This document shows, piece after piece, positions 5,307 to 20,653 of a DNA stretch of 64,000 nucleotides. The position numbers and the translations under genes are program-made. This stretch comes from Desulfobacterales bacterium (GTDB lineage Bacteria > Desulfobacterota > Desulfobacteria > Desulfobacterales > Desulfosarcinaceae). The stretch's first letter is position 1. The number at the start of each line of letters is the position of its first letter. Where the stretch lies: contig JACRDD010000019.1 in assembly GCA_016218685.1 (NCBI GenBank), forward strand, positions 186,001-250,000, written 5' to 3'. The notes beneath the pieces were generated by a model. It was not told the DNA's origin. It saw only the letters and a list, made by a program, of their open reading frames with translations, and ran no database searches.

Positions 5307-5999
5307 GTGGCCAAGGATCTCCCGGTCATTCGGTTTCGCGGCGCCTGCAAAAGCTATCCCATGGCGGGTGAAACGGTGCAGGCCTTAAGGGGCGTGGATG
5401 TGGATATCCATGCCGGAGAGTTTGTGGCCATCATGGGGCCGTCGGGTTCCGGCAAGTCCACCCTCATGCATATCGCCGGGCTGCTGGACAGCCTGAGCGG
5501 CGGGCGATACGAACTCGAAGGCGAAGATGTTTCGGCCATCTCCAGAAGAAATCGCGCCGACATCCGCAATCGAAAAATCGGATTTATCTTCCAGAGCTTC
5601 AATCTGCTCTCGCGTTGCAGCGCCGTGGAGAACGTGGAACTGCCCATGCTCTATCACCGGCCGGCCATTGCCGATTGGCGCGAAAGAGCCATGCAGGCGC
5701 TGCGCAGCGTGGGCATGGAAAGCCGGGCGGCCCATTTGCCGACCCAACTGTCCGGCGGTCAGCAGCAGCGCGTGGCCATTGCCCGCGCCCTGGTCAACCG
5801 GCCGGCCCTGATTCTGGCCGACGAGCCCACCGGCAATCTCGACAGCCGCACCGGCCGGGAGATCATGGAGCTGCTCGAATCGTTGAATACCGAGGGGATT
5901 ACCCTCATCCTGGTTACCCACGATCCTGAAGTGGGACAAGCGGCGCATCGCCGCATCCGTTTGCGGGACGGCATGATCGAGGCCGACGAGGTGAATTGA
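5307..5999 (+). CDS. MacB-type ABC transporter ATP-binding protein
   Basis: Cytoplasmic ATPase of 230 residues that powers the neighbouring permease. It carries Walker A GPSGSGKST, Q-loop FQSFNLL, signature LSGGQQQRVAIARAL, Walker B LILADEPTGNLD and the H-loop in LVTHDPE. These match the LolD/MacB class, which works by mechanotransmission rather than by moving substrate through the membrane. The start is GTG 5307 with AGGAGG just upstream. In E. coli, MacB fuses ATPase and permease; here they are separate genes in the order macA-ATPase-permease. No TolC gene is present in the window. Confidence 0.92.
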   Translation: MAKDLPVIRFRGACKSYPMAGETVQALRGVDVDIHAGEFVAIMGPSGSGKSTLMHIAGLLDSLSGGRYELEGEDVSAISRRNRADIRNRKIGFIFQSFNLLSRCSAVENVELPMLYHRPAIADWRERAMQALRSVGMESRAAHLPTQLSGGQQQRVAIARALVNRPALILADEPTGNLDSRTGREIMELLESLNTEGITLILVTHDPEVGQAAHRRIRLRDGMIEADEVN

Positions 6000-7297: not shown

Positions 7298-10200
7298 CTA
7301 AACCTGGCCGCCTTCGTCCAGAACCCGTCTCACGGTCCGCGACATTTCCATAAGGGTGATCGGCTTCATCAGAATTTCTTTGATCCCGGTCGCTTTGGCT
7401 TTTCCACGGCCCAGCCTTTCGCTAAACCCGGTGCAAATGATGATGGGGATGTCCGGTTGGATTGCAATCAGTTCTTTCGCCAATTGTTCGCCCGTCATAT
7501 TCGGCATCGCCATGTCGGTAATCACCAAGTCGTAGCCCTGCGGATTGGCCCTGAACGCCTCCAGGGCATCCACGCTGCTCAATCGGGTGGTGACCTGGTA
7601 GCCGAGACGGGCGAACATTTGTCCTTCCAGCTCGGCAATCATTTTCTCGTCGTCGACCAGCAAAATTCGTTCATGGCCGGTTGGAAAACCGCTCGCTCTT
7701 TCGGGCGAAGCCGCTTGGGCCGAATCCTCTGTCAGGGGCAAGTAAACATGGAAATCCGTTCCTTTTCCCACTTCGCTAAAAACCTTGATCTCGCCCTGGT
7801 GTTCCTTGACGATCCCATATACTACGGCAAGCCCGAGGCCCGTGCCCTTGCCCTGCTCCTTGGTAGTAAAATAGGGCTCAAAGATCTTGCCCATAATAGC
7901 CGCGTCTATGCCGCAGCCCGTATCGGACACGGACAGCCGGGCGTATCGCCCCGGTGCCAGTGCGGCCTCCGCCGACGCATCTTTTTCCAACTTTTCTTCC
8001 CGTAAGCCGATCGATAGCCGCCCGCCGGTCTTCTCCATGGCGTGAAAGGCGTTGATGATCAAATTCATGGCAATTTGATGCAATTGGGTGGGGTCAGCCA
8101 TGATATGGGCGCAATCTTTTTGAATGTCTTGGACGATCTCGATGTTGGAAGGGATGGTCGACCGGCTCAGCTTGATTACTTCTTTAAGTATCGTCTGAAT
8201 CCGAATGGGCGTTGATTTAGGTTCCGATTGACGGCTGAAGAAAAGAATCTGTTGAACGAGTTCCTTGGCCCTCAGGCCCGAAGAATAAATCCCATCCACA
8301 TATCGCCGCTGCGGGCTTCCGGCGGGCAGATCCTGCGAGAGCAACTCGCTATACCCGATCATGGGATGCAGGATATTGTTAAAGTCATGGGCGATCCCGC
8401 CGGCCAAAGCGCCGATGGCCTCCATCTTCTGGGATTGGGTGAGCCTGGCTTCCAGCCGCATCTTTTCTTCTGCGGCCTTTTTCTGCTCGGTGATGTCGCG
8501 CAGGATCGCGACGATGAAATGTTCGCCCTTTTTATCCGCGTAGAGGGTTTTTTTGGTCACAATGGTGTGGACGCCGCCCTGGGCGTCGGTAAAGGATGCT
8601 TCACTGATGTTCTCCTTGCCGCTGTTCAGGGCAAGTTCGTCCGTGGCCCAGAAGACATCGGCTTCGTCCGGTGCAAAGAAGTCATGCTCGGTTTTTCCCA
8701 GCAGCTCTTCGCGGGCGTGTCCGACGAAGGCGCACATGGCATTGTTTACCAGCACCCACCGATGCCCCCGGTCTTTGACAAACATCGGATCGGCCACGGC
8801 ATTGATGATCTCGTCCAGATAGTTCCGCGACTCCGCAAGGGCCTCTTCGGCATGTTTGCGGTCGCTGGCATCCATGAGGAACCCCTCGATCCATGCTGGC
8901 AGCCCATCGTCGCCGTTCACCATGCGGGCGCTAATGGAGGCCCATATCTTCTCCCCATCCTTGCGGTAGAGCTGGATTTCAAAGCGGTGAGCTGTACGGT
9001 TTTTTAAAATTTGAGCAAGCAACCTGCCCCGGTCATTCGGGTTGAGGTAGAGATGCTGCCGGACATTGGTCAGTTCTTCGGCCGAATCGTGCCCCAGAAT
9101 GCGGGCCAAGGCCGGATTCGCGTTGAGGATGCGGCCTTCAAGGGTAATTTGAAAAACCCCTTCGATGGCGTTTTCGAAGATCCCCCGATATTTCTCCTCG
9201 CTTTTGCGCAACCCCTCGATGGAGTGCCGGAGCTTCCCGGTCATGAGATTGAAGGTGCGGGCCAGGCTGCCGATCTCGTCGTGGGACTGCACGTCAACCA
9301 CCTGATCCAGGTCGCCCTGGATGATCCTTTCAGCCACTTCGGTCATGTGGCGTACGGGCCGTGTGATGGTCCAGGCGATGATACTTCCGATCATCCCGAC
9401 GATGAGAATGATAATGATGCCCGCCAAACCCATAACGCGGGTCATCCGGAGCCGCCCCGTGTCGAGCAAGCCGCGGTAAGTCAAAAGCTCGGCCTCGTTC
9501 ACGCTCGTTCCGATGACCCAGTTCCAGGGCGCATAATAGGCCAGGCGGGCGATTTTCCAGTGGGCCTCTGTGTCGCCCGGATTCTGCCAGCGATATCGAA
9601 CGGTCGTCATCTCTCCAGGTTTGAGCAAGGTCGCCTTCTCGATGATCTCTTGAATCACGTGGTGATCGTCACTATCCGTGACCGACCAGATATTTTCGCC
9701 GTCCCGCTTGCCGTTCTGCGAGATCACATACCGTCCGCGGTCTTCGCCTTTGCCGCTGAGGACATAGACATAGCCTGTCCGGCCCACCCTGGTCTGCAGG
9801 ATGGCTTGTCTCACCCGGGACTCCGGGACCTCCTGTTTGATGCCGACATAAAGCATGCCCACCAGGCTGCCGGTGATATCCCAGATCGGTTCATACGCCG
9901 TAAGGTACCAGGCGTTCACCACATAGGCGCGGCCATGGTAGGTTTGGCCTTTTAGAATCGCTGAAATAACTGGATTCTCCGTGCCGTCGGGATTGACCGA
10001 TGGGATATAGGTGCCAATGGCCCTTTGATTGGCGGCTGTCCTGACGGTGGTGGCGACCCGCAGCATGTCGCCCCTGGCATTCATCCGCTGGAAGATAGTA
10101 GCGGTTTCCCCGACCAAACGGGTGACTTCATCGACGATCGGGGTCTTAATGGCCAGGTCCATGTTCTGACCCAACCAGGTCTGTCCGATCAGGAACTTGG

Positions 10201-10537
10201 GCAGCTTGAGATCTTGGGATTCCTTATTGAACTGGTTCACGGCCTTCCAACCGACCGTCTCTTTCGCCAATTGGACGCGGCCCGCTCCGGTCAAAAAGTG
10301 CCTGGCCACATTGAGGTTGTAGTCCACCTGCAACTGGACAGCCTCGTTCTCGGTGCGCACCAGGTTGTAAACCCCTTGCGTGATATGATCGAGGTCGGCA
10401 TCGATTAAAGCGTCCACCTCTTGCCTGGCCAATTGGTTGTATTCGCCGCTCTGCCACACAGCGATCAGCACGAGCGCGATGGCCGTAATCAGCACGCTGC
10501 TCGCCCCCATGAGGGCCACCTTGGCATTCAGCTTCAT
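7298..10537 (-). CDS. Hybrid sensor histidine kinase (Cache-HAMP-PAS-PAS-HisKA-HATPase-REC)
   Basis: Membrane sensor kinase of 1079 residues. Order: first membrane helix near 8-28, a large periplasmic Cache-type region to about 365 (with the YVGIKQEVPES and GRTGYVYVLSG segments typical of Cache folds), second helix near 368-390, HAMP to about 440, PAS near 448-560, second PAS near 572-685, HisKA with GGIAHDFNNIL (phosphorylatable His717), HATPase with N-box (NLIINAFHAM) and G boxes DTGCGI and GKGTGLGL, then a receiver with Asp1008 in VITDMAMPNMTG. The His motif is the class found in many hybrid kinases. No DNA-binding output is present, so phosphate would pass to another protein. It is convergent with macB. 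Ligand unknown. Confidence 0.92.
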   Translation of the reverse strand: MKLNAKVALMGASSVLITAIALVLIAVWQSGEYNQLARQEVDALIDADLDHITQGVYNLVRTENEAVQLQVDYNLNVARHFLTGAGRVQLAKETVGWKAVNQFNKESQDLKLPKFLIGQTWLGQNMDLAIKTPIVDEVTRLVGETATIFQRMNARGDMLRVATTVRTAANQRAIGTYIPSVNPDGTENPVISAILKGQTYHGRAYVVNAWYLTAYEPIWDITGSLVGMLYVGIKQEVPESRVRQAILQTRVGRTGYVYVLSGKGEDRGRYVISQNGKRDGENIWSVTDSDDHHVIQEIIEKATLLKPGEMTTVRYRWQNPGDTEAHWKIARLAYYAPWNWVIGTSVNEAELLTYRGLLDTGRLRMTRVMGLAGIIIILIVGMIGSIIAWTITRPVRHMTEVAERIIQGDLDQVVDVQSHDEIGSLARTFNLMTGKLRHSIEGLRKSEEKYRGIFENAIEGVFQITLEGRILNANPALARILGHDSAEELTNVRQHLYLNPNDRGRLLAQILKNRTAHRFEIQLYRKDGEKIWASISARMVNGDDGLPAWIEGFLMDASDRKHAEEALAESRNYLDEIINAVADPMFVKDRGHRWVLVNNAMCAFVGHAREELLGKTEHDFFAPDEADVFWATDELALNSGKENISEASFTDAQGGVHTIVTKKTLYADKKGEHFIVAILRDITEQKKAAEEKMRLEARLTQSQKMEAIGALAGGIAHDFNNILHPMIGYSELLSQDLPAGSPQRRYVDGIYSSGLRAKELVQQILFFSRQSEPKSTPIRIQTILKEVIKLSRSTIPSNIEIVQDIQKDCAHIMADPTQLHQIAMNLIINAFHAMEKTGGRLSIGLREEKLEKDASAEAALAPGRYARLSVSDTGCGIDAAIMGKIFEPYFTTKEQGKGTGLGLAVVYGIVKEHQGEIKVFSEVGKGTDFHVYLPLTEDSAQAASPERASGFPTGHERILLVDDEKMIAELEGQMFARLGYQVTTRLSSVDALEAFRANPQGYDLVITDMAMPNMTGEQLAKELIAIQPDIPIIICTGFSERLGRGKAKATGIKEILMKPITLMEMSRTVRRVLDEGGQV

Positions 10538-10653
10538 GTTTTTACAGGACCTTCCCCCTCAATCTTTTCAGTCATAGAGATATATCGCCAAATTCAAAGA
10601 AATCATAAGCTGCAAGCAGCGCATCCCAATTCTCCCACACGCGGTCAAACCAT

Positions 10654-10694
10654 AAAAAAAGGGGGAAGCAGCATGAGCGCTGCAACCCCCCCTT
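10654..10694 (-). terminator. Rho-independent terminator of the tRNA transcript
   Basis: Read on the minus strand, AAGGGGG then GCAGC, a short loop, GCTGC and CCCCC are followed by seven T residues. The hairpin plus T-run directly follows the tRNA-Arg gene and is a good intrinsic terminator. Confidence 0.8.
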
Positions 10695-10702
10695 AATTCT
10701 GA

Positions 10703-10779
10703 TGGTACGCCCGGCCCGATTCGAACGGGCGACCTACGGATTCGAAGTCCGGTGCTCTATCCAGCTGAGCTACGGGCGC
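10703..10779 (-). tRNA. tRNA-Arg (anticodon TCG)
   Basis: The minus strand folds as a cloverleaf: acceptor GCGCCCG with CGGGCGT, D-arm GCTCAGCTGGATAGAGC, anticodon loop CTTCGAA, T-arm GCCCGTTCGAATCGGGC, and an encoded CCA at 10703-10705. The first acceptor pair is a G-T wobble. The gene is 77 bases long including CCA and reads arginine codons CGN (CGA by direct pairing). Confidence 0.95.
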
Positions 10780-10838
10780 GTACGCAAAAACGATAAGACC
10801 ATTGCGGCAATGATCCGACAATGGTCTATTTTTATCGA

Positions 10839-10915
10839 TGGGGTGAGTGATGGGGCTTGAACCCACGACACCCAGGGCCACAACCTGGTGCTCTGCCAAC
10901 TGAGCTACACCCACC
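10839..10915 (-). tRNA. tRNA-His (anticodon GTG)
   Basis: The cloverleaf on the minus strand has acceptor GTGGGTG with CACTCAC, D-arm GCTCAGTTGGCAGAGC, anticodon loop TTGTGGC, T-arm CGTGGGTTCAAGCCCCA (approximate ends) and an encoded CCA. The base before the acceptor stem is G (position 10915), which fits the extra G-1 of tRNA-His, opposite discriminator C. It lies 59 bases upstream of tRNA-Arg in the same direction, probably in one transcript. Confidence 0.95.
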
Positions 10916-10929
10916 ATGAGAAAGCGCAA

Positions 10930-10958
10930 CTGATATCAAAAAGGACGGGGGGGCGCAA
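10930..10958 (-). promoter_or_regulatory. Candidate promoter of the tRNA-His/tRNA-Arg transcript
   Basis: On the minus strand TTGCGC (10953-10958) and TATCAG (10930-10935) are separated by exactly 17 bases. Transcription would begin a few bases before tRNA-His. The boxes are only partial matches to consensus. Confidence 0.4.
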
Positions 10959-11087
10959 GCGCAAATATGGAATCATCGAGCGCCGTCTCAGCGCTTGACA
11001 CCTTCGACCCTTTGCTCCTATGGATGATTAGCGGACAGCACGCGCCCTCGTTTTCCCACCATCAACACCCTACCTTGAGAGGCTTTT

Positions 11088-12929
11088 ATGGAATGCGACA
11101 AAGCGCTCAGCCTGGTTGAAATCCTCAATGCCATGGAAGACGGCATCTATATTACACGCAGCGACCACACCGTGGAGTTCATGAACCGGGCCATGCTGAA
11201 GCAGTTCGGCCCGGGTGTGGGCAAGAAATGCTATGAGGTGGTCAACGACAGCGAGGTGATGTGCCCCTGGTGCCAGGCCAAGGAGGTGTTCGGGAAGGGT
11301 ACCAGCGTGCAGTCGGAGATCTATATCCCGCGCCAGGACAAGACCTACCGCATCATCGAGGTACCCATCCAGAACCTGGACGGCACAGTCTCCAAGCTCA
11401 ACATTTACCGGGACATCTCCCTACGCAAGGACCAGGAGCTCAAGCTGCGGGCCAGCGAGCAGGACTACCGGCGCCTGTTCGAAAACGTGGCCGCCGGCGT
11501 CTACGTCAGCTCCAAGGAGGGACGCTTTCTCAATGCCAACCAAACCATGCTTCAAATGCTCGGATATGCCAGCAAAGAAGAATTTTTAATGATCCAGATC
11601 CAAAAGGATCTTTACGTGCGGCCCGAGGACCGCATTGCCTTCCAGCAGATGATCGAAGACCACGGCCAGGTGGTCAACTACCCGGTCAACTTCAAACGCA
11701 AGGACGGCAGCACCCTGCCGGTGTTGCTGACCTCCCACACCCTGCGGGATCATGCCGGTCAGGTGGTGGGCTACGAAGGCATCTGCGTCGACCAAACCCA
11801 GATCACCCAAATGGAACAAAAGCTGCGCGAGGCCCACGATTTTCTGAACAACATCATCCAAAGCTCGCCCAACGCCATCCTCGGCGCCGACATGGAAGGC
11901 AAGATCATCATGTGCAACAAAGGCGTCCAAGAGACCATGGGCTACAGTGCCGAAGAACTGATAGGCGTCGATGTCCGCCGCATTTACGACGGCAGCATGG
12001 CCTACGAGGTCATGCGCATGATGCGCAGCCCGGAATATGGGGGTCAGGGCAAATTGCGCACCTATCCCATTACCTTCAAGCACAAGGAAGGCCATCCGGT
12101 GGAAGGTACCTTGTCAGCCAGCATCATTTACGACGAGAACGGCAAAGAAAAAGCTTCAGTGGGCATTTTCGTCGATCTGGAAGAGCGCCTGGAGATGGAG
12201 CGCAAACTGCGGCGTACCCAAGAGCAACTGCTGCAATCGGAAAAGCTGGCGGCCATGGGGCGACTCACCTCTCAACTGGCCCACGAGCTGAACAACCCGC
12301 TGTACGGCATCATGAACACCCTGGAATTGATGAAAACCGAGATCAAACCCGACAACAAGCGCCGCCGGCTGTTGGACATGTCCCTGTCCGAAACCATGCG
12401 CCTGGCCGACATGCTGCGCAAGATGCTCTCCTTTTCAAAGCCGGACCAGGAGCAGCGCAGCCCGGTGGACATCAACACCATCGTGGACGAAATCATGTTG
12501 CTGCACGAGAAGCAGTTACGCGAGGTGGACATCAAGATCGAGCTGAATTTCGCCAAAGACTTGAAGCCCGTGATGGCCAGCAAGAACCAACTGCGCCAGG
12601 TGTTTCTCAACATGGTCTCCAACGCCAAGGATGCCATGCCCAACGGTGGGGTTTTAAAAGTCGCCACGGTCGGCAACGGCGGCCACGTGCGGGTGGATAT
12701 CAGCGATACTGGCACGGGCATCAAACCCGAGCACCTGGACCACATTTTCGACACCTTCTTCACCACCAAAACTGACAGCGGCCGGGGCGTGGGCCTGGGA
12801 TTGTCGGTCTGCTACGGATTCGTCAAGGACCATGGGGGCGACATCCAAGTAGAGAGCAGTTGGGGCCAGGGCACGACCTTCAAAATCATCCTGCCGGTGA
12901 TCGCCGCCGCTGAACCGGACCCGCATTGA
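11088..12929 (+). CDS. PAS-domain sensor histidine kinase (three PAS domains)
   Basis: Soluble kinase of 613 residues without a membrane helix. PAS domains lie near 8-115, 122-240 and 248-370. The first includes a CPWC pair at 60-63, a feature of some PAS domains where it may bind metal or respond to redox (inference). The HisKA motif is LAHELNNPLYGIM with His399. The ATPase has FLNMVSNAKDAMP, DTGTGI and GRGVGLGLSVC. There is no receiver domain. The HTH-receiver gene follows about 330 bases downstream on the same strand, but that gene has its own promoter. A kinase-regulator pair controlling the metF-hdr genes is a reasonable guess from position. Confidence 0.9.
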   Translation: MECDKALSLVEILNAMEDGIYITRSDHTVEFMNRAMLKQFGPGVGKKCYEVVNDSEVMCPWCQAKEVFGKGTSVQSEIYIPRQDKTYRIIEVPIQNLDGTVSKLNIYRDISLRKDQELKLRASEQDYRRLFENVAAGVYVSSKEGRFLNANQTMLQMLGYASKEEFLMIQIQKDLYVRPEDRIAFQQMIEDHGQVVNYPVNFKRKDGSTLPVLLTSHTLRDHAGQVVGYEGICVDQTQITQMEQKLREAHDFLNNIIQSSPNAILGADMEGKIIMCNKGVQETMGYSAEELIGVDVRRIYDGSMAYEVMRMMRSPEYGGQGKLRTYPITFKHKEGHPVEGTLSASIIYDENGKEKASVGIFVDLEERLEMERKLRRTQEQLLQSEKLAAMGRLTSQLAHELNNPLYGIMNTLELMKTEIKPDNKRRRLLDMSLSETMRLADMLRKMLSFSKPDQEQRSPVDINTIVDEIMLLHEKQLREVDIKIELNFAKDLKPVMASKNQLRQVFLNMVSNAKDAMPNGGVLKVATVGNGGHVRVDISDTGTGIKPEHLDHIFDTFFTTKTDSGRGVGLGLSVCYGFVKDHGGDIQVESSWGQGTTFKIILPVIAAAEPDPH

Positions 12930-13263: not shown

Positions 13264-13836
13264 ATGGAAGACACTTTGACGGTCTACAAAGCCAGCCAAT
13301 TGTGCAAGGTCTCCTCCAAGTCCATTATCAACTGGATCGAGGCCGGTCATATCAAGGCCTACAAAACCGTGGGCGGCCACCGGCGCATCAAGCGCGAGGA
13401 TCTCGAATTTTTCATGAAACGCCAGGGAATTCCCTTCCCCAGCGAGGAGCCGGATCGCGCCCACAAACGCATCCTGGTGGTGGACGACGATCCCATCATC
13501 GTGGAAACCATCGTGCAGTCCCTCGAGGAAGACGAGTACGACTACGAGGTGATCTCCGCGGCCGATGGCTTCGAAGCCGGGTTGCAGGTCAATCATTTCA
13601 AGCCGGACTTGCTGATCCTGGACATCATGATGCCCGACATCAAGGGCAATGAAGTGTGCCGCAAGATCAAATCCAACCCGGACACCAAGAACACCAAGAT
13701 CATCGTTCTTTCGGCCTATCTGGACGACGACAAATTCAAGGAGATGAAGGCCCATGGCGCGGACATGTGTTTTTCCAAGCCGCTGCCGCTACCCCAACTC
13801 AAAGAGGAGGTCGCCCGGCTGCTGGGTATCGTTTGA
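13264..13836 (+). CDS. Response regulator with N-terminal excisionase/MerR-type HTH and C-terminal receiver
   Basis: Protein of 190 residues with the reverse of the usual regulator order. Residues 1-55 form a MerR/excisionase-like helix-turn-helix (TVYKASQLCKVSSKSIINWI then AYKTVGGHRRIKREDLEFF). After a short linker comes a receiver domain: RILVVDDDP, phosphoacceptor Asp in LLILDIMMPDIKG, and the Lys in SKPLPLPQL. The start at 13264 is preceded by GGGGGTG and lies downstream of the promoter. It stands 35 bases before metF and is probably the local regulator of the metF-hdr genes, perhaps phosphorylated by the kinase at 11088-12929 (inference). Confidence 0.88.
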   Translation: MEDTLTVYKASQLCKVSSKSIINWIEAGHIKAYKTVGGHRRIKREDLEFFMKRQGIPFPSEEPDRAHKRILVVDDDPIIVETIVQSLEEDEYDYEVISAADGFEAGLQVNHFKPDLLILDIMMPDIKGNEVCRKIKSNPDTKNTKIIVLSAYLDDDKFKEMKAHGADMCFSKPLPLPQLKEEVARLLGIV

Positions 13837-13871: not shown

Positions 13872-14750
13872 ATGAAATTGAAAGACGCCCTGGGTAATAG
13901 AAAATTCGTGGTCACCTCCGAGGTGCAGACACCTCTGGGGGATGACTCTCCGGAACAACTCGTCGATCGCCTGAAACGCATCCGCGGAAGAGTGGACGGC
14001 GTGTCGGTTAGCGATGTGGACCTGGAAGGGGTCGTGGGCGACAGCATCCACACCTGCGAACTGCTGCAACGCAGCCGCTTCAACGCCATCTACCAGACCA
14101 CGACGCGCGACAAGAACCGCATCCAACTGCAAAAGGATCTGGCCCTGGCGCACCAGTCGGGCATCGAAAACCTGCTGGTCTTCACCGAAGACTACCGCAT
14201 CACCGGCGACAGCGTGCAGGAGCAGATGTTCTTCCATGTGGACGCGGGCAAGCTCAGCTCGGTGCTGCAGCACATCCGCGACGGCCGGGCCATCGACGGA
14301 GAAAAACTGCCGGAACCCATCGACTTCACCCTGGGCTCGGGCATCGAGTCGCTCTGGGGCAAAAAGGTCCCCAAGCAGGGCATGGAAGGCATGGAGACCC
14401 TCAAGCTCATGGGCGCCGGCTACTTCCTGACCACCCCCATCTTCGATCTGGAGCAGTTCGAGAAGTTCATGCGCCAAATCAAGGTGCTGGATGTGCCGGT
14501 GATCGCCGAAGTACTGCTGCTGCGCAACGCGGCCATGGCGCGCTTCATCAACCGCCACTTCAAGCCCGGCCTGGTGCCGGAATGGGTGATCCAGAAGCTG
14601 GACAACGCACCGGACAAGCAGAAGGCCAGCATCGAGCTGTTCGGCGACCTGGCCCGGGGCCTGAAAGAGATTTGCAGCGGCCTGCACATCATCACCCTGG
14701 GCGGAGAAGACAAGCTGCAGCCGTACCTGGACGCCGCCAATTTGCGCTGA
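13872..14750 (+). CDS. metF: MetF-like methylene-tetrahydrofolate reductase family protein
   Basis: Protein of 292 residues with the MetF TIM-barrel pattern: an N-terminal FVVTSEVQTPLGDD strand with the conserved Glu, a Ser/Asp segment (VDGVSVSDVDLEGVVGD), YQTTTRDKNRIQLQKDL matching the family's T-x-RD-N motif, and QIKVLDVPVIAEVLLLRN near the C-terminus. The enzyme would interconvert methylene- and methyl-tetrahydrofolate, as in the Wood-Ljungdahl pathway. The start ATG 13872 has GGAGG upstream; a longer open frame from 13656 is antisense-free read-through of the regulator and is not used. Next to it are Hdr-type electron carriers, not the MetV seen in many acetogens, so NAD(P)H or ferredoxin coupling through Hdr proteins is likely (inference). 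Confidence 0.85.
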   Translation: MKLKDALGNRKFVVTSEVQTPLGDDSPEQLVDRLKRIRGRVDGVSVSDVDLEGVVGDSIHTCELLQRSRFNAIYQTTTRDKNRIQLQKDLALAHQSGIENLLVFTEDYRITGDSVQEQMFFHVDAGKLSSVLQHIRDGRAIDGEKLPEPIDFTLGSGIESLWGKKVPKQGMEGMETLKLMGAGYFLTTPIFDLEQFEKFMRQIKVLDVPVIAEVLLLRNAAMARFINRHFKPGLVPEWVIQKLDNAPDKQKASIELFGDLARGLKEICSGLHIITLGGEDKLQPYLDAANLR

Positions 14751-14920: not shown

Positions 14921-16204
14921 ATGCCCCTCATCGAAATCAACGAAATGACGCCCGAATTCAAAGAGGTCGTCAAGGAAAAGGTCCCCACCGCCAACTTCGA
15001 CCTGTGCCTGACCTGCGGCACCTGCACGGCCGGCTGCCCGGCTTCGGAGCTCTTCGACATGGACCCGCGCAAGCTGGTGCGCATGCTGGTGCTGGGCATG
15101 GATGAAGAGATCCTCAAAACGCCCTGGGCCTGGGTCTGCACCATGTGCACGCGTTGCGTCAACGCTTGTCCCATGAAAGTCGACATCCCCAAACTGGTCT
15201 ATAACATGCGCAACAGTTGGCCCCGGGAAAAGCGGCCCAAGGGCATCCGCGGTTCGTGCGACCAGCACATCCGCGCCGGCAATGCCATGGGCGTGCCCAC
15301 CGACGACTTCATCTGGACCGTGGAGGACGTGGCCGAAGAGATCCGCGAAAGCCAGCCCCAGTTCAAGGAGATGCAGGTCACGGTGGACCGCAAAGGGGCC
15401 TTGATGGCCATCAACCAGAACTCCCGCGAGCCGGTCACGGAACCGGAAGAGTTGGGCCCGCTGTGGAAAATCCTGCACTCGGTGGGGGCGGACTGGACCT
15501 ATCCTTCGGTCATGTGGGCCGGGGAGAATTACTGCCTCTTTCTGGCCGACGACGAAGGCTGGCGCTATATCCTGGAGGAGTTTGTCAGCCATATCGACAA
15601 CACCCTCAAGTGTCCGCTGGTGGTCAACACGGAGTGAGGGCACTCCTTCTTCGCAATCCTGGAAGGATTGAAAAAGTTCAAGATTCCCCACAAGTTCGAG
15701 TTCACCAACATCATCGCGCTCTACGCCCAATGGATCCGGGAGGGCAAGCTTAAGGTCAACAGCGACTGGAACAAGGATTTGAAGATCAAATTCACGGTCC
15801 AGGACCCGTGCAACATCGTGCGCAAAACCTGGCGCGAGCGCATGGCCGAAGATCTGCGCTTCGTGGTCAAGACCATCGTGGGCGAAGAGAATTTCATCGA
15901 TATGATTCCCAGCGGCATCAACAACTACTGCTGCGGGGGCGGCGGCGGCGCCCTGCAGGCCGGCTATACCGAACAACGCCGGGCCTACGGCAAGGTCAAG
16001 TTCGACCAGATCATGGAAACCGGCGCCCAATACGTGCTGGCGCCCTGCCATAACTGCCACGCCCAGATCGAAGATATCGGCCATCACTACGGCGGCAAAT
16101 ACCTCGTGGCTCATATCTGGACTATCATGTGCCTGGCCATGGGCATTTTGGGAGAGAACGAGCGCAAGTATCTTGGAGATGATTTGAAGGATTTCGGCTT
16201 ATAG
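14921..16204 (+). CDS. HdrC-HdrB fusion (HdrD-like) iron-sulfur protein, selenoprotein with UGA at 15635-15637
   Basis: The frame from ATG 14921 (AAAGGAGG upstream) meets TGA at 15635-15637, then continues in the same frame for 188 more codons to the true stop. Reading TGA as selenocysteine gives 427 residues. The N-terminus is HdrC-like with two [4Fe-4S] motifs (Cys29, 32, 35, 39 and Cys73, 76, 79, 83). The rest is HdrB-like with two CCG domains. In the first, Cys205 is followed after 33 residues by E-U-G-H, so Sec239 stands where the family has TECGH. The second is intact (DPCNIV... CCGGGGG ... CHNC). A hairpin follows the UGA. It lies between metF and the hdrA-like gene and would take part in thiol/disulfide or electron-bifurcating chemistry. 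A sequencing or nonsense change is possible but fits less well. Confidence 0.85.
15638..15670 (+). promoter_or_regulatory. Bacterial SECIS element of the HdrB-like selenoprotein
   Basis: Right after the UGA (15635-15637), CAATCC (15654-15659) pairs with GGATTG (15665-15670) around the loop TGGAA. The loop begins 22 bases after the UGA and has G at its second position. Both features fit the known bacterial SECIS pattern (loop some 16-37 bases downstream, G among its first bases). A weaker lower stem, CTTCTT with AAAAAG, could extend it. Confidence 0.7.
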
Positions 16205-16219
16205 TAAGGAGGAAGAACG

Positions 16220-19200
16220 ATGGAAAAGACAACGACCGGCGCGGTATTGGTGGTCGGCGGCGGTATCGCCGGCATTCAAGCCTCCCTGGACCTGGCCGAA
16301 TCGGGTTTCAAAGTCTACCTGGTGGAGAGCGGTTCGGCCATCGGCGGCAAGATGGCCCAGTTGGACAAGACCTTTCCCACCAACGACTGTTCCATGTGCA
16401 TCATCTCGCCCAAGCTGGTGGAGGCCGGACGTCACCTGAACATCGAATTGCTGCCCCTGACCGAGGTGGATGGGATCAGCGGTGAGCCCGGCAATTTCAC
16501 GGCGCGCCTGCTGCAAAAGCCACGTTTCATCCACATGGACAAATGCACGGCCTGCGGCGAGTGCGCTAAGGTGTGCCCCATCGAAACCCCCAACCGCTTC
16601 GACGAGGGCCTGCGCGGCCGCAAGGCAGCCTACAAACTCTACCCCCAGGCCATGCCCGGGGCCTATGCCATCGAAAAACGGGGCACGGCGCCGTGTAAGG
16701 CCACCTGCCCGGCCCACGTGAGCGTGCAAGGCTGGATCGCCCTGATGCACCAGAACAAGTACGCCGAGGCCCTGGCCCTGTTCAAGTCCGAGCACCCCTT
16801 CCCCGGCGTCTGCGGCCGCGTCTGCCACCATCCCTGCGAAACCGCCTGCACGCGCCTGAAGGTCGATGAACCCCTGGGCATCCAATACCTGCACCGCCAA
16901 CTGGCCGACTGGGACCTGCAGGCGCCCCAGCGCTACGTACCCGAGAAGAAACCGGCCAACGGCCAGAAGGTGGCCGTGATCGGTTCCGGACCGGCCGGCC
17001 TGACCTGCGCCTACTTTCTGGCCATTGAGGGCTACGCGGTCACGGTCTTCGAACAGCAAAAGGAATTGGGCGGCATGCTCGTGCTGGGCATCCCCGAGTA
17101 CCGTTTGCCGCGCAGCATCGTGGAGGCCGAAATCCAGACCATCCGCGACCTGGGGGTGGAATTTCAGACCGGCGTCACCATCGGCAAGGGCGGCATCACC
17201 ATCGGCCAGCTGCGCAAAGAGGGCTACAAAGCCTTTTTCATGGGCATCGGCGCCCAGGAGTGCAAATCCCTGGGCATCGAAGGCGAAGAATTCAAAGGCG
17301 TCTTTCCCGGCATGGAGTATTTGCGCCGGGCCAACCTGGGCGAGAAGATCGCCCTGGGCGATCGGGTGGCGGTCATCGGCGGCGGCAACGTGGCCATGGA
17401 TGCCGTACGCACCGCCTTGCGCCACGGCGCGGCCAAACCCTTCATCATCTACCGCCGGGGCGAAGCCGAAATGCCGGCCAGCAAAGAAGAGATCGCCGAG
17501 TGCCGCGACGAAGGCATCGAGATCATGACGTTGACCAATCCAATAAAGGTCATCGCCGAAAACGGCCGGGTCACGGCCATCCAGTGCATCCGCATGCAGT
17601 TGGGTGAGGCGGACAAAAGCGGCCGGCGGCGGCCCGAACCGGTGGCCGGCTCGGAGTTCACCATTCCGGTGGACGCCATCATCCCGGCCATCGGTCAGGA
17701 GAGCGATTGGGCCTGTCTCACCGATGAGTGCGCCTGCACCCTGAGCGACTGGGGCACCATGAACGTGGACCCGCTCAGCCTGCAAACCAACGACCCCGAC
17801 ATCTTCGCCGGCGGCGACGCGGTCAGCGGCCCGGCCACGGTGGTGGAAGCCATTGCGGCAGGCAAAGAGGCGGCCATCTCCATCCAGCGCTTCATCCAGG
17901 GCGGCGATTTATACCAGGATCGCCCCCATCACTGGGAAACGGTCAGCGATGTGCCCTTGGACGACGAGCCCCGCAAGCCGCGCACCGCCATGTCCCACCG
18001 GCCGGCGTCCGAACGGGTGCAGAGTTTCGCCGAAGTGCAGACCGGCTATTCCGCCGAAGAGGCCCTGGCCGAGACGGATCGCTGCCTGGCCTGCGGCGTG
18101 TGCTCCGAATGCTACCAGTGCGTCAAGGCCTGCCTGGCCGGCGCCGTGGATCACGCCCAGTGCAGCCAGACGCGGGAAGTCAAGGTAGGGGCCGTGATCC
18201 TGGCCCCCGGCTTCAAACCCTACGATCCCAGCCTTTACGAAACCTACAGTTACGCCAAACACCCCAATGTCGTCACCAGCCTGGAGTTCGAACGCATGCT
18301 CTCGGCCTCGGGGCCGTATGCCGGGCACCTGGTGCGGCCCTCGGACGGCCAGGAACCCAAGCGCATCGCCTGGCTGCAGTGCGTGGGCTCGCGCGACATC
18401 AACCACTGCGACAACGGCTACTGCTCGTCGGTGTGCTGCATGTACGCCAACAAGCAGGCAGTGATCGCCAAGGAGCACAGCGCCGAGCCGCTGGACGCGG
18501 CCATCTTCTACATGGACATGCGCACCTTCGGCAAAGACTTCGACAAGTACAACCTGCGGGCCGAAGACGATCACGGCGTGCGCTTCGTGCGCTCGCGCAT
18601 CCACTCGGTCTTTCCGGCCAAAGAAGATCGCCTGCGCATCGTTTACGCCACCGAGGCCGGACGCACGGCCGAAGAGATCTTCGACCTGGTGGTGCTCTCC
18701 GTTGGCCTGACCGCCGATCCCCAAGCCACGGCCCTGGCCGGACGCCTGGGGGTTGAACTCAATGGTTACGGTTTTGCTCAGACCCATGGCACATCGCCGG
18801 TACTCACCTCCCGCGACGGCATCTACGTCTGCGGCGCCTTCCAGGAACCCAAGGACATCCCTCATTCGGTCATGGAGGCCTCGGCCGCCGCGGCCTGCGC
18901 CGGCGAACGTCTGGCGGCCAGCCGCTGGAGCCTGACCCAGACCAAGGAGCTGCCCCCGGAGCTCGACTTCTCCGGCCAGCCGCCGCGCATCGGCGTCTTC
19001 GTCTGCAACTGCGGCATCAACATCGGTGGGGTGGCCGACGTGCCGGCCGTGCGCGACTATGCCCGCACGCTGCCCCATGTGGTGCATGTGGAAGACAATC
19101 TGTTCACCTGCTCCCAGGACAGCCAGGTGCACATCAAGGAAGTCATTAAGGAGAAGCAGATCAACCGCGTAGTAGTGGCCTCCTGCTCGCCGCGCACCCA

Positions 19201-20653
19201 CGAGCCGCTCTTCCAGGAGACCATCCGCGAGGCGGGCCTCAACAAATATCTCTTCGAGATGGCCAACATCCGCGACCAGAACACCTGGGTGCACATGAAC
19301 AACCCGGCCAAGGCCACCGAAAAGGCCAAGGACCTGGTGCGCATGGCCGTGGCCAAGGCGCTCTACATCGAACCGCTCTACACCGTCTCGGTGCCGGTGA
19401 CCAAAGCGGCCCTGGTGGTCGGCGGCGGCGTGGCCGGCATGGAAGCGGCCCTGGGCGTGGCCGAACAAGGCTGCGAGGTCCACCTGGTGGAACGCGACAG
19501 TCGCCTGGGCGGCAATGCCCGCCACCTGCGCAGCACCTGGCAGGGCGACGACCTGCAAGCCTATCTTAAAAATCTGGTGGAACGGGTGCAGGGCCATCCG
19601 CGCATCCGACTGCACCTGAACAGCGAAGTCACCGCCACCCACGGCTCGCTGGGCAACGTCACCAGCGTCGTCGCCGACGGCAGCGGCCGGGACCAGACCA
19701 TCGTCCACGGCGCCACCATCCTGGCCGTAGGCGCCAAAGAGCACAAACCCACCGAATTTCTCTACGGCAAGCATCCCAATGTCATGACCCACCTGGAGAT
19801 GGACGATGCCTTCACCCGCAAGGACGAGCGCATCACCCGGGCCGACTGCGCCGTCTTCATCCAGTGCGTGGGCTCGCGCAACAACGACCGGCCCTATTGC
19901 AGCAAAACCTGCTGCACCCACAGCCTCAAGGGGGCCCTGGCGCTCAAGGCCCAAAACCCGGAGATGAAAGTCTTCATCATCTACCGCGACATCCGCTCCT
20001 ACGGCTTCCGCGAGCAGCTCTACCAGGAGGCCCGCAGCCAGGGCGTGATTTTCATCCGCTACGACCTGGACAACCCGCCCAGCGCCGCCATCGGCGACCG
20101 CGATCAACTGCTGCTCACCGTCACCGACCACGTCTTGAAGCGGCCCATCCGCATCAAACCCGACCTGCTCGTCCTGGCGGCCGGCATCGTGGCCACGGAC
20201 AACCACCGGCTCTTCGAGCTGTTTAAGGTACCGGTCAACGACGACGGTTTCCTGGTCGAAGCCCACGCCAAGCTGCGCCCGGTGGACTTTGCTTCCGAAG
20301 GCATCTTCCTGGCCGGCCTGGCCCACTACCCCAAACCCATGGAAGAGAGCATCGCCCAGGCCAAGGCCGCCGCGGCCCGCACCATGACCCTGCTCTCCAA
20401 GGAGGCCCTGCTGGTGGGCGGCGTGGTCGCCATGGTGGACAGCGCCCGCTGCGCCGCCTGCCTGACCTGCGTGCGCGCCTGCCCATACGGCATCCCCGAA
20501 GTCCGCGAGCACTCCCACGCCGTCATCGATCCGGCCCAGTGCCACGGCTGCGGCACCTGCGTCGCCGAATGCCCGGGCAAGGCCATCAGCCTCAAGCACT
20601 TCACCGACGAACAGCTCATCGCCAAGACCGCGGCGCTGTTTGCCCGCGGGTGA
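16220..20653 (+). CDS. Giant HdrA-type flavoprotein: HdrA with GltD-like NAD(P)H module, fused to a second HdrA
   Basis: Protein of 1477 residues. Residues 1-150 start an HdrA FAD domain (VVGGGIAGIQASLDLA, then CSMCIISPKL and a 4Fe-4S motif CTACGECAKVCP at 109-119). Residues 155-590 are a GltD/NfnB-like module: CKATCPAHVSVQ, a Cys cluster CGRVCHHPCETAC near 198-210, a GSGPAGLTCAYFL dinucleotide fold near 255 and GGGNVAMDAVRTA near 387. A further Cys-rich segment (CLACGVCSECYQC, 622-634) returns to HdrA sequence. From about 925 a second HdrA begins (VCNCGINIGG), with its FAD fold VVGGGVAGMEAAL near 1067 and two C-terminal 4Fe-4S motifs (CAACLTCVRACP, CHGCGTCVAECP). It is last in the metF-hdr operon, 15 bases after the selenoprotein, and probably couples NAD(P)H to ferredoxin and Hdr chemistry. 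Confidence 0.9.
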   Translation: MEKTTTGAVLVVGGGIAGIQASLDLAESGFKVYLVESGSAIGGKMAQLDKTFPTNDCSMCIISPKLVEAGRHLNIELLPLTEVDGISGEPGNFTARLLQKPRFIHMDKCTACGECAKVCPIETPNRFDEGLRGRKAAYKLYPQAMPGAYAIEKRGTAPCKATCPAHVSVQGWIALMHQNKYAEALALFKSEHPFPGVCGRVCHHPCETACTRLKVDEPLGIQYLHRQLADWDLQAPQRYVPEKKPANGQKVAVIGSGPAGLTCAYFLAIEGYAVTVFEQQKELGGMLVLGIPEYRLPRSIVEAEIQTIRDLGVEFQTGVTIGKGGITIGQLRKEGYKAFFMGIGAQECKSLGIEGEEFKGVFPGMEYLRRANLGEKIALGDRVAVIGGGNVAMDAVRTALRHGAAKPFIIYRRGEAEMPASKEEIAECRDEGIEIMTLTNPIKVIAENGRVTAIQCIRMQLGEADKSGRRRPEPVAGSEFTIPVDAIIPAIGQESDWACLTDECACTLSDWGTMNVDPLSLQTNDPDIFAGGDAVSGPATVVEAIAAGKEAAISIQRFIQGGDLYQDRPHHWETVSDVPLDDEPRKPRTAMSHRPASERVQSFAEVQTGYSAEEALAETDRCLACGVCSECYQCVKACLAGAVDHAQCSQTREVKVGAVILAPGFKPYDPSLYETYSYAKHPNVVTSLEFERMLSASGPYAGHLVRPSDGQEPKRIAWLQCVGSRDINHCDNGYCSSVCCMYANKQAVIAKEHSAEPLDAAIFYMDMRTFGKDFDKYNLRAEDDHGVRFVRSRIHSVFPAKEDRLRIVYATEAGRTAEEIFDLVVLSVGLTADPQATALAGRLGVELNGYGFAQTHGTSPVLTSRDGIYVCGAFQEPKDIPHSVMEASAAAACAGERLAASRWSLTQTKELPPELDFSGQPPRIGVFVCNCGINIGGVADVPAVRDYARTLPHVVHVEDNLFTCSQDSQVHIKEVIKEKQINRVVVASCSPRTHEPLFQETIREAGLNKYLFEMANIRDQNTWVHMNNPAKATEKAKDLVRMAVAKALYIEPLYTVSVPVTKAALVVGGGVAGMEAALGVAEQGCEVHLVERDSRLGGNARHLRSTWQGDDLQAYLKNLVERVQGHPRIRLHLNSEVTATHGSLGNVTSVVADGSGRDQTIVHGATILAVGAKEHKPTEFLYGKHPNVMTHLEMDDAFTRKDERITRADCAVFIQCVGSRNNDRPYCSKTCCTHSLKGALALKAQNPEMKVFIIYRDIRSYGFREQLYQEARSQGVIFIRYDLDNPPSAAIGDRDQLLLTVTDHVLKRPIRIKPDLLVLAAGIVATDNHRLFELFKVPVNDDGFLVEAHAKLRPVDFASEGIFLAGLAHYPKPMEESIAQAKAAAARTMTLLSKEALLVGGVVAMVDSARCAACLTCVRACPYGIPEVREHSHAVIDPAQCHGCGTCVAECPGKAISLKHFTDEQLIAKTAALFARG

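Follow-up and report, generated by a model that had tools for sequence, protein, structure and literature searches.

Several described systems bear on the locus studied here. One of them, published in 2006, is a selenoprotein family of GlpC-type Fe-S oxidoreductases (PMC1794560), and a 2026 review carries the entry 'Fe-S oxidoreductase-like protein, PTHR43551, motif UGH' (PMC13188914); according to excerpts of these two sources, the UGH proteins (GlpC; PTHR43551) have selenocysteine (Sec) in a U-G-H motif, occur in Deltaproteobacteria and are encoded adjacent to hdrA. The sulfate reducer Desulfobacterium autotrophicum has Sec-containing HdrD4 and HdrF2 proteins with HdrC- and HdrB-like parts, HdrF2 also carrying transmembrane parts, and the excerpts of that report tell of no MetF linkage (PMC2702500). 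The Hdr-type methylene-THF reductase of Moorella thermoacetica is encoded as hdrBCA-mvhD-metVF and brings a MetF-family protein together with Hdr proteins, including an HdrA of about 1,487 residues with a GltD insert; in Sporomusa ovata, pulldowns recovered MetF together with HdrA and HdrB, although no stable complex was purified (both from excerpts of PMC9430772). In EtfD of Mycobacterium smegmatis (9ojn), a membrane-bound, heme-containing protein with ferredoxin and CCG parts, four cysteines of the N-terminal CCG domain (Cys503, Cys538, Cys581 and Cys584) are the ligands of a linear [3Fe-4S] cluster, and the noncubane cluster D2 has its ligand set completed by His583 (excerpts of PMC13083937).

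We analysed a 64,000-nucleotide stretch of DNA from a Desulfobacterales bacterium (the window), whose forward strand reads through at 14921–16204 as a frame of 427 residues with a single in-frame TGA at 15635–15637, corresponding to residue 239 (U239); homologues of 93% to 33% identity share both frame and site. The ordinary list of open reading frames divides the gene at this TGA into two pieces of 238 and 178 residues, and since such a list splits UGH-type genes in this way, annotations may miss them. Pfam searches with the undivided frame matched Fer4_8 at residues 27–87 and CCG at residues 292–383. The former is an HdrC-like dicluster ferredoxin domain (14999–15181, forward strand) with eight cysteines (29, 32, 35, 39, 73, 76, 79 and 83), each of which is Cys in 88 of 89 aligned rows and falls in a gap in the remaining one. 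In the C-terminal CCG domain (15794–16069, forward strand), C297, C337, C338, C376 and C379 are Cys in 89/89 rows and by comparison probably represent a full set of noncubane cluster ligands. The HdrB/HdrD-type arrangement with a full Cys set in both CCG domains is absent, only the C-terminal set being complete.

The predicted fold agrees with this layout. An AlphaFold2 model built from 27 sequences (mean pLDDT 83.1, pTM 0.85) matched EtfD (9ojn) best among solved structures (Z 22.9 over 364 residues), followed by HdrB chains (Z 19.2–20.1 over 247–253 residues), 3kwl (Z 19.5 over 338), LutA (9a6l; Z 19.2 over 226) and an HdrC chain (Z 10.7 over 148); EtfD and HdrB also ranked first with Foldseek. 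Frame, Pfam matches and fold thus bear out the preliminary description of the gene, made from the letters alone, as an HdrC-HdrB fusion of 427 residues split by an in-frame TGA. The best-scoring NCBIfam models were those of HmcF, TmcB and DsrK, yet all three scores lie far below the cut-offs (174.6 of 750, 159.4 of 735 and 111.8 of 400, respectively), and these identities were rejected. The gene most likely encodes an HdrC-HdrB (HdrD/EtfD-like) selenoprotein, hereafter HdrCB, which in contrast to EtfD has no membrane part. Its U-G-H motif agrees with that of the known UGH selenoproteins, whose published members, like HdrD4 and HdrF2, were compared through partial descriptions.

To examine the site codon we compared 90 tblastn rows from 87 sources, namely the window, 26 named loci and 60 stretches hand-picked among the matches listed; the hand-picked stretches took in places both with and without a TGA, and all 87 sources covered the site. 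The codon is TGA in 68 rows, TGC in 17, TGT in 3, TTC in 1 and AAG in 1, the AAG row being a second match in locus L093 with only 24% identity. Homologues thus align across the site with TGA, TGC or TGT in 88/90 rows, as had been anticipated from the position of the TGA at the Cys of a TECGH-like motif. In the close family (rows above 50% identity) the motif is NTE-U/C-GH, read as NTEUGH at residues 236–241 of the window protein, and in a sister family of 33–37% identity it is PE-U-GHAY, with TGA in 16/16 rows. The genome of the window holds two further places of 60–62% identity, each with exactly one TGA, and the single distant row L129, from the own genome, has Cys at the site (TECGH, in a TE-GHAY context). 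All 60 genomes of the first search contained some homologue at E≤0.001. In 148 genomes drawn evenly from the phylum, that of the window among them, the close family was present in 19 at E≤1e-100, and 22 of its 27 places carried one TGA and 5 none.

A tree of the 88 rows with Sec (68) or Cys (20), calculated without the TTC and AAG rows and with the site masked in the Sec rows, implied four or more switches between Sec and Cys. Sec and Cys rows are intermingled; for example, the Cys row L130 lies beside the Sec row L050, and the Cys rows L068 and L069 are nested inside the metF-linked group. The deep placement is unsure because of the long branches that lead to L129 and to three of the sister rows. 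Judged on these aligned codons, the alternation of TGA and Cys at exactly one codon is beyond chance.

A SECIS-like hairpin follows the codon at 15654–15670 (forward strand), with arms at 15654–15660 and 15664–15670 forming 7 bp around a GGA loop (15661–15663). Its G-containing loop was correctly predicted in the preliminary description; its distance was not, as 16 bases and not 22 separate it from the TGA. We compared the rows column by column from the site, ungapped, with the stem defined as columns 19–25 paired with columns 29–35. All seven pairs form in 50 of 52 distinct close-family TGA rows and in 0 of 19 close-family Cys rows, and the next best of 400 offsets scanned in this family reached 0.19. 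At three of the seven stem positions the bases change between rows but still pair (A-T, G-T and T-A; G-C and A-T; T-A, G-C and G-T), with one odd cell in the first pair and one in the last, and the loop begins with G (column 26) in 52/52 TGA rows. When the 3' letters were shuffled, at most 32 of the 52 rows were fully paired in 10,000 trials; the shuffles ignore relatedness, but the Cys rows serve as a related control for the stem. Furthermore, synonymous-codon conservation, measured in 13 TGA rows from the orthologue group, is highest at the hairpin (identity of 0.98 at codon offset +7 and 0.95 at +6, relative to a mean of 0.56 over 259 windows).

Single-sequence folding of 15629–15690 was no better than that of shuffled sequences (z −0.58) and so is not evidence alone; the case for the hairpin rests on the comparison. 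Rfam models at gathering scores found two tRNAs alone in the window. In the TGA rows of the sister family, the stem was present in 2/16 rows in one register (A) and 0/16 in another (B), register B as set holding one pair that never forms, and these rows show other hairpins. An unrelated offset of −188 reached 0.81 in the sister family, so that a scan of fixed geometry can be misleading in 16 related rows.

The machinery for Sec insertion was sought by profile searches of the window's own assembly, which placed SelB on contig C5 (367 bits) and SelA (611 bits) and SelD (382 bits) on contig C22, all above curated cut-offs, SelD itself having one in-frame TGA. Of the four sel genes whose presence had been proposed as a check, selA, selB and selD were thereby found, and selC (tRNA-Sec) did not rise above its cut-off in this assembly, which is 64.6% complete (best match 42.7 bits). 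tRNA-Sec exceeded the cut-off in 8 of 10 genomes of the same genus and in 51 of the 60 genomes searched, and SelB in 56 of the 60. Taken together, the codons at the site, the hairpin, the sel genes and the TGA stop of the gene next door make residue 239 very probably selenocysteine. We regard it as close to certain, on this comparative evidence, that the UGA at 15635–15637 is decoded as Sec with the hairpin at 15654–15670 acting as the SECIS element.

Two other readings of the codon were weighed against Sec. Were the TGA a real stop, the locus would hold two proteins, of 238 and up to 178 residues, or else a decaying pseudogene or an assembly error, and an open reading frame with a TTG start does exist downstream (15668–16204); many separate genomes, however, retain TGA at this codon within a frame that is open to either side of it, homologues have Cys instead and the hairpin covaries, which is not the behaviour of a pseudogene. 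We consider this explanation very improbable. Genome-wide reassignment of UGA, for example to Trp or Cys, is less credible still: we found nothing in its favour, the neighbouring MetF-like gene ends with a TGA (14748–14750), which indicates that the code is not reassigned, and in a genome with selA, selB and selD the site alternates with Cys codons, not with Trp.

To locate Sec239 within the fold, the CCG part was compared with solved structures by profile, which matched HdrB over the C-terminal half (E 4.5e-10) and EtfD across the site (E 3.7e-7). In the alignment to EtfD (9ojn), U239 falls on Cys581, the first Cys of the CPHC motif, and His241 (15641–15643, forward strand), which is His in 89/89 rows, on His583; by aligned sequence, Sec239 thus takes the position of the first Cys in the CxxC-type motif that ends the N-terminal CCG domain. 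Residue 242, at the position of EtfD Cys584, is Ser, Val, Glu, Ile or Ala across the rows. The window protein hence resembles EtfD in its C-x-H motif but starts with the ferredoxin part and, of C-P-H-C, keeps only Sec239 and His241. It shares the two-CCG-domain fold and the full C-terminal Cys set of methanogen HdrB (5odc), from which it differs in having mostly lost the cysteines of the N-terminal CCG domain, and for this reason only one noncubane cluster would be expected. The mapping overturns the earlier argument that the 33-residue spacing from Cys205 obeys a C-x(31-38)-CCG rule, since U239 aligns with the first Cys of CPHC; the argument also fails because Cys205 (15533–15535, forward strand), which is Cys in 71/71 covered close-family rows, is Ala in L129 and Gly in all 16 sister rows, which retain the TGA.

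The position of Sec239 suggests how it might act. Its alignment with EtfD Cys581 would put it two residues ahead of the His that ligates the noncubane cluster, and with the counterpart of Cys584 gone its selenol probably faces an emptied pocket beside that cluster. There is about an even chance, by our estimate, that the selenol is redox-active within this N-terminal cluster or substrate pocket, possibly with Cys205 as its partner in this subfamily. Direct ligation of iron, with Sec239 tuning the potential either of the noncubane cluster or of a small cluster shared with Cys205 in the degenerate N-terminal CCG domain, appears somewhat less probable. The aligned Cys581 does ligate the linear [3Fe-4S] cluster of EtfD (PMC13083937, in excerpt), and Cys205 does not vary among the covered rows of the selenoprotein's own subfamily; against an iron ligand, residue 242 is never Cys. 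The Gly at position 205 in the sister family, where the TGA is kept, means that a cluster shared by Sec239 and Cys205 cannot be the general role, and we rejected it as such. A redox-active selenol in the emptied pocket is the role that we favour.

We next compared the gene neighbourhood. HdrCB lies in a block of four genes on the forward strand, in the order of a helix-turn-helix and response-regulator receiver protein (13264–13836; Pfam HTH_17 and Response_reg), a divergent MetF-like protein of the MTHFR family (13872–14750; PF02219, 71.8 bits), HdrCB and HdrL (16220–20653), an HdrA-type protein of 1,477 residues into which a GltD-type NAD(P)H domain is inserted (matches to NCBIfam HdrA2/HdrA and GltD-type models and to Pfam); the MetF-like and HdrL genes thus flank the selenoprotein gene on the same strand. 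By comparison the order appears conserved: among rows of at least 70% identity, the regulator and MetF-like genes lie upstream in 15/16 and a GltD-bearing HdrL downstream in 14/16, the exceptions being L052, at a contig edge, and the Cys row L130, which has a different arrangement. The earlier designation of the upstream neighbour as metF stands as to the family and not as to the canonical enzyme, since the protein is a divergent paralogue. The Gln of the MetF TQ motif contacts the pterin. In the MetF-like protein this Gln is replaced by Thr or Asn in 15/15 aligned orthologues, and a Glu near the N-terminus is retained; this divergence makes a methylene-THF reaction at the HdrCB complex uncertain.

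In relatives, the block is extended by genes of the Moorella type. L053 and L054 (Sec) and L068 and L069 (Cys) have, after HdrL, an MvhD-type frame with an in-frame TGA and then a MetF with the canonical TQ; between MvhD and MetF in L053, L054 and L068 lies a MetV-like frame, assigned by visual comparison with the MetV of L058, itself tested with Pfam. In L058 the order is HdrCB (Sec), divergent MetF, HdrA, MvhD, MetV and a MetF with the canonical motif, and L059, L062, L063 and L064 have HdrCB, divergent MetF, HdrA and a second MetF spaced as in L058. The window's own genome has such genes at a contig end, as an MvhD(TGA)-MetV-MetF set on C26; on contig C4 there was no FlpD match, and the sole MetV-type match lay more than 50 kb from the operon. 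The genome has three more PF02219 places (C26, C22 and C4:261272), each with a MetV-type PF12225 match beside it or within the same frame. The TGA of the MvhD-type frames stands at C-x-Y-U in L053, L054, L068 and L069, and one is also present at C26:234232–234600 of this genome (G000). As these MvhD-type genes of the cluster carry an in-frame TGA, two selenoproteins can share one operon.

Relative to the Moorella system, HdrC and HdrB are here a single fused selenoprotein, the MetF is divergent, and MvhD and MetV are encoded outside the window operon, elsewhere in the genome, although in some relatives they are joined to it. Sec is not tied to folate chemistry, as shown by L130, a Cys orthologue (75% identity) without MetF beside it, and by 20 of 52 close-family TGA rows in which there was no MetF or HdrL-type protein among the matches listed (up to about 9 kb on each side, some stretches being short; the N-terminal match of HdrL fell outside the matches listed for these counts).

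HdrCB, the MetF-like protein and HdrL, the HdrA/GltD fusion, may form an Hdr-type module in which electrons would move between the NAD(P)H and flavin sites of HdrL, the two [4Fe-4S] clusters, the C-terminal noncubane cluster and the folate reaction. From the operon and the protein families we infer the partner proteins, the clusters bound and the direction of electron flow, and we lean, with some reserve, towards a module that moves electrons between NAD(P)H/flavin, the clusters and methylene-/methyl-THF. The explanation as a whole, that of an HdrC-HdrB selenoprotein, with the Hdr/MetF-like module and the redox selenol as its less firm parts, is in our judgement highly likely. A more specific proposal, put forward tentatively and rather doubtful at present, is that the locus encodes a sulfate-reducer version of the Moorella-type Hdr-methylene-THF reductase, in which the fused selenoprotein replaces HdrBC, a lone Sec in the emptied N-terminal CCG pocket acts directly on the noncubane cluster or ligates it, and the MetF-like protein is remodelled, shifted from canonical THF binding.

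This kind of selenoprotein is already known. The families described in PMC1794560, PMC13188914 and PMC2702500, even as excerpted, do not bear out the earlier view that Sec is unusual in such a protein. The literature searched, which mostly excluded subscription journals, yielded no account of a metF-linked UGH selenoprotein, and within it the setting beside folate genes and the mapping to single residues are new; none is told of in the excerpts of PMC13188914, PMC1794560, PMC2702500, PMC9312934, PMC5109826, PMC13083937 and PMC9430772. The reported UGH operon is glpC-hdrA-frhD-frhG-frhA (as excerpted), whereas the window gene has a MetF-like gene on one side and an HdrA-GltD fusion on the other. 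The little-characterised UGH kind thereby gains a likely fold, a position for its Sec residue (that of EtfD Cys581, beside the His ligand) and a pathway setting in the folate branch with an HdrA-GltD module. Furthermore, as the same operon has a Sec orthologue in L053 and L054 and a Cys orthologue in L068 and L069, the effect of selenium beside a noncubane cluster can be compared between natural variants.

Some loci hold more than one HdrCB copy. Desulfocicer vacuolatum (L055) has a Cys copy at 10001–11269 on the plus strand and a Sec copy at 5439–4162 on the minus strand, about 4.6 kb apart. In L110 the second copy is degraded, its Sec site (position 2632) reading TTC (Phe) and its frame being interrupted by a TAA; it lies beside a Cys copy without inner stops. 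A second, lower-scoring selB together with a tRNA-Sec (TCA) was found in L112 (G017), L110 (G019), L096 (G042), L148 (G045) and L149 (G007), about 0.6–9.4 kb from a Cys-type HdrCB copy, and L110, L112 and L148 also have nearby a homologue, by N-terminal sequence, of the PF06050-type protein of L055 (2-hydroxyglutaryl-CoA dehydratase D-like). The closeness of these additional selB/tRNA-Sec pairs to several Cys copies led us to test the idea that Cys codons are read as Sec through a tRNA-Sec with an alternative anticodon; the five tRNAs scanned (L112, L110, L096, L148 and L149) all have TCA, and the idea was dropped for these genes. In another genome, a tRNA at L153 (G034 C128:37718–37805) matches the tRNA-Sec family at 53 bits and is called tRNA-Cys with anticodon GCA; it lies near a partial selB at a contig end, in a genome with further tRNA-Sec matches of 77 and 61 bits, and is possibly a selenocysteine tRNA for Cys codons.
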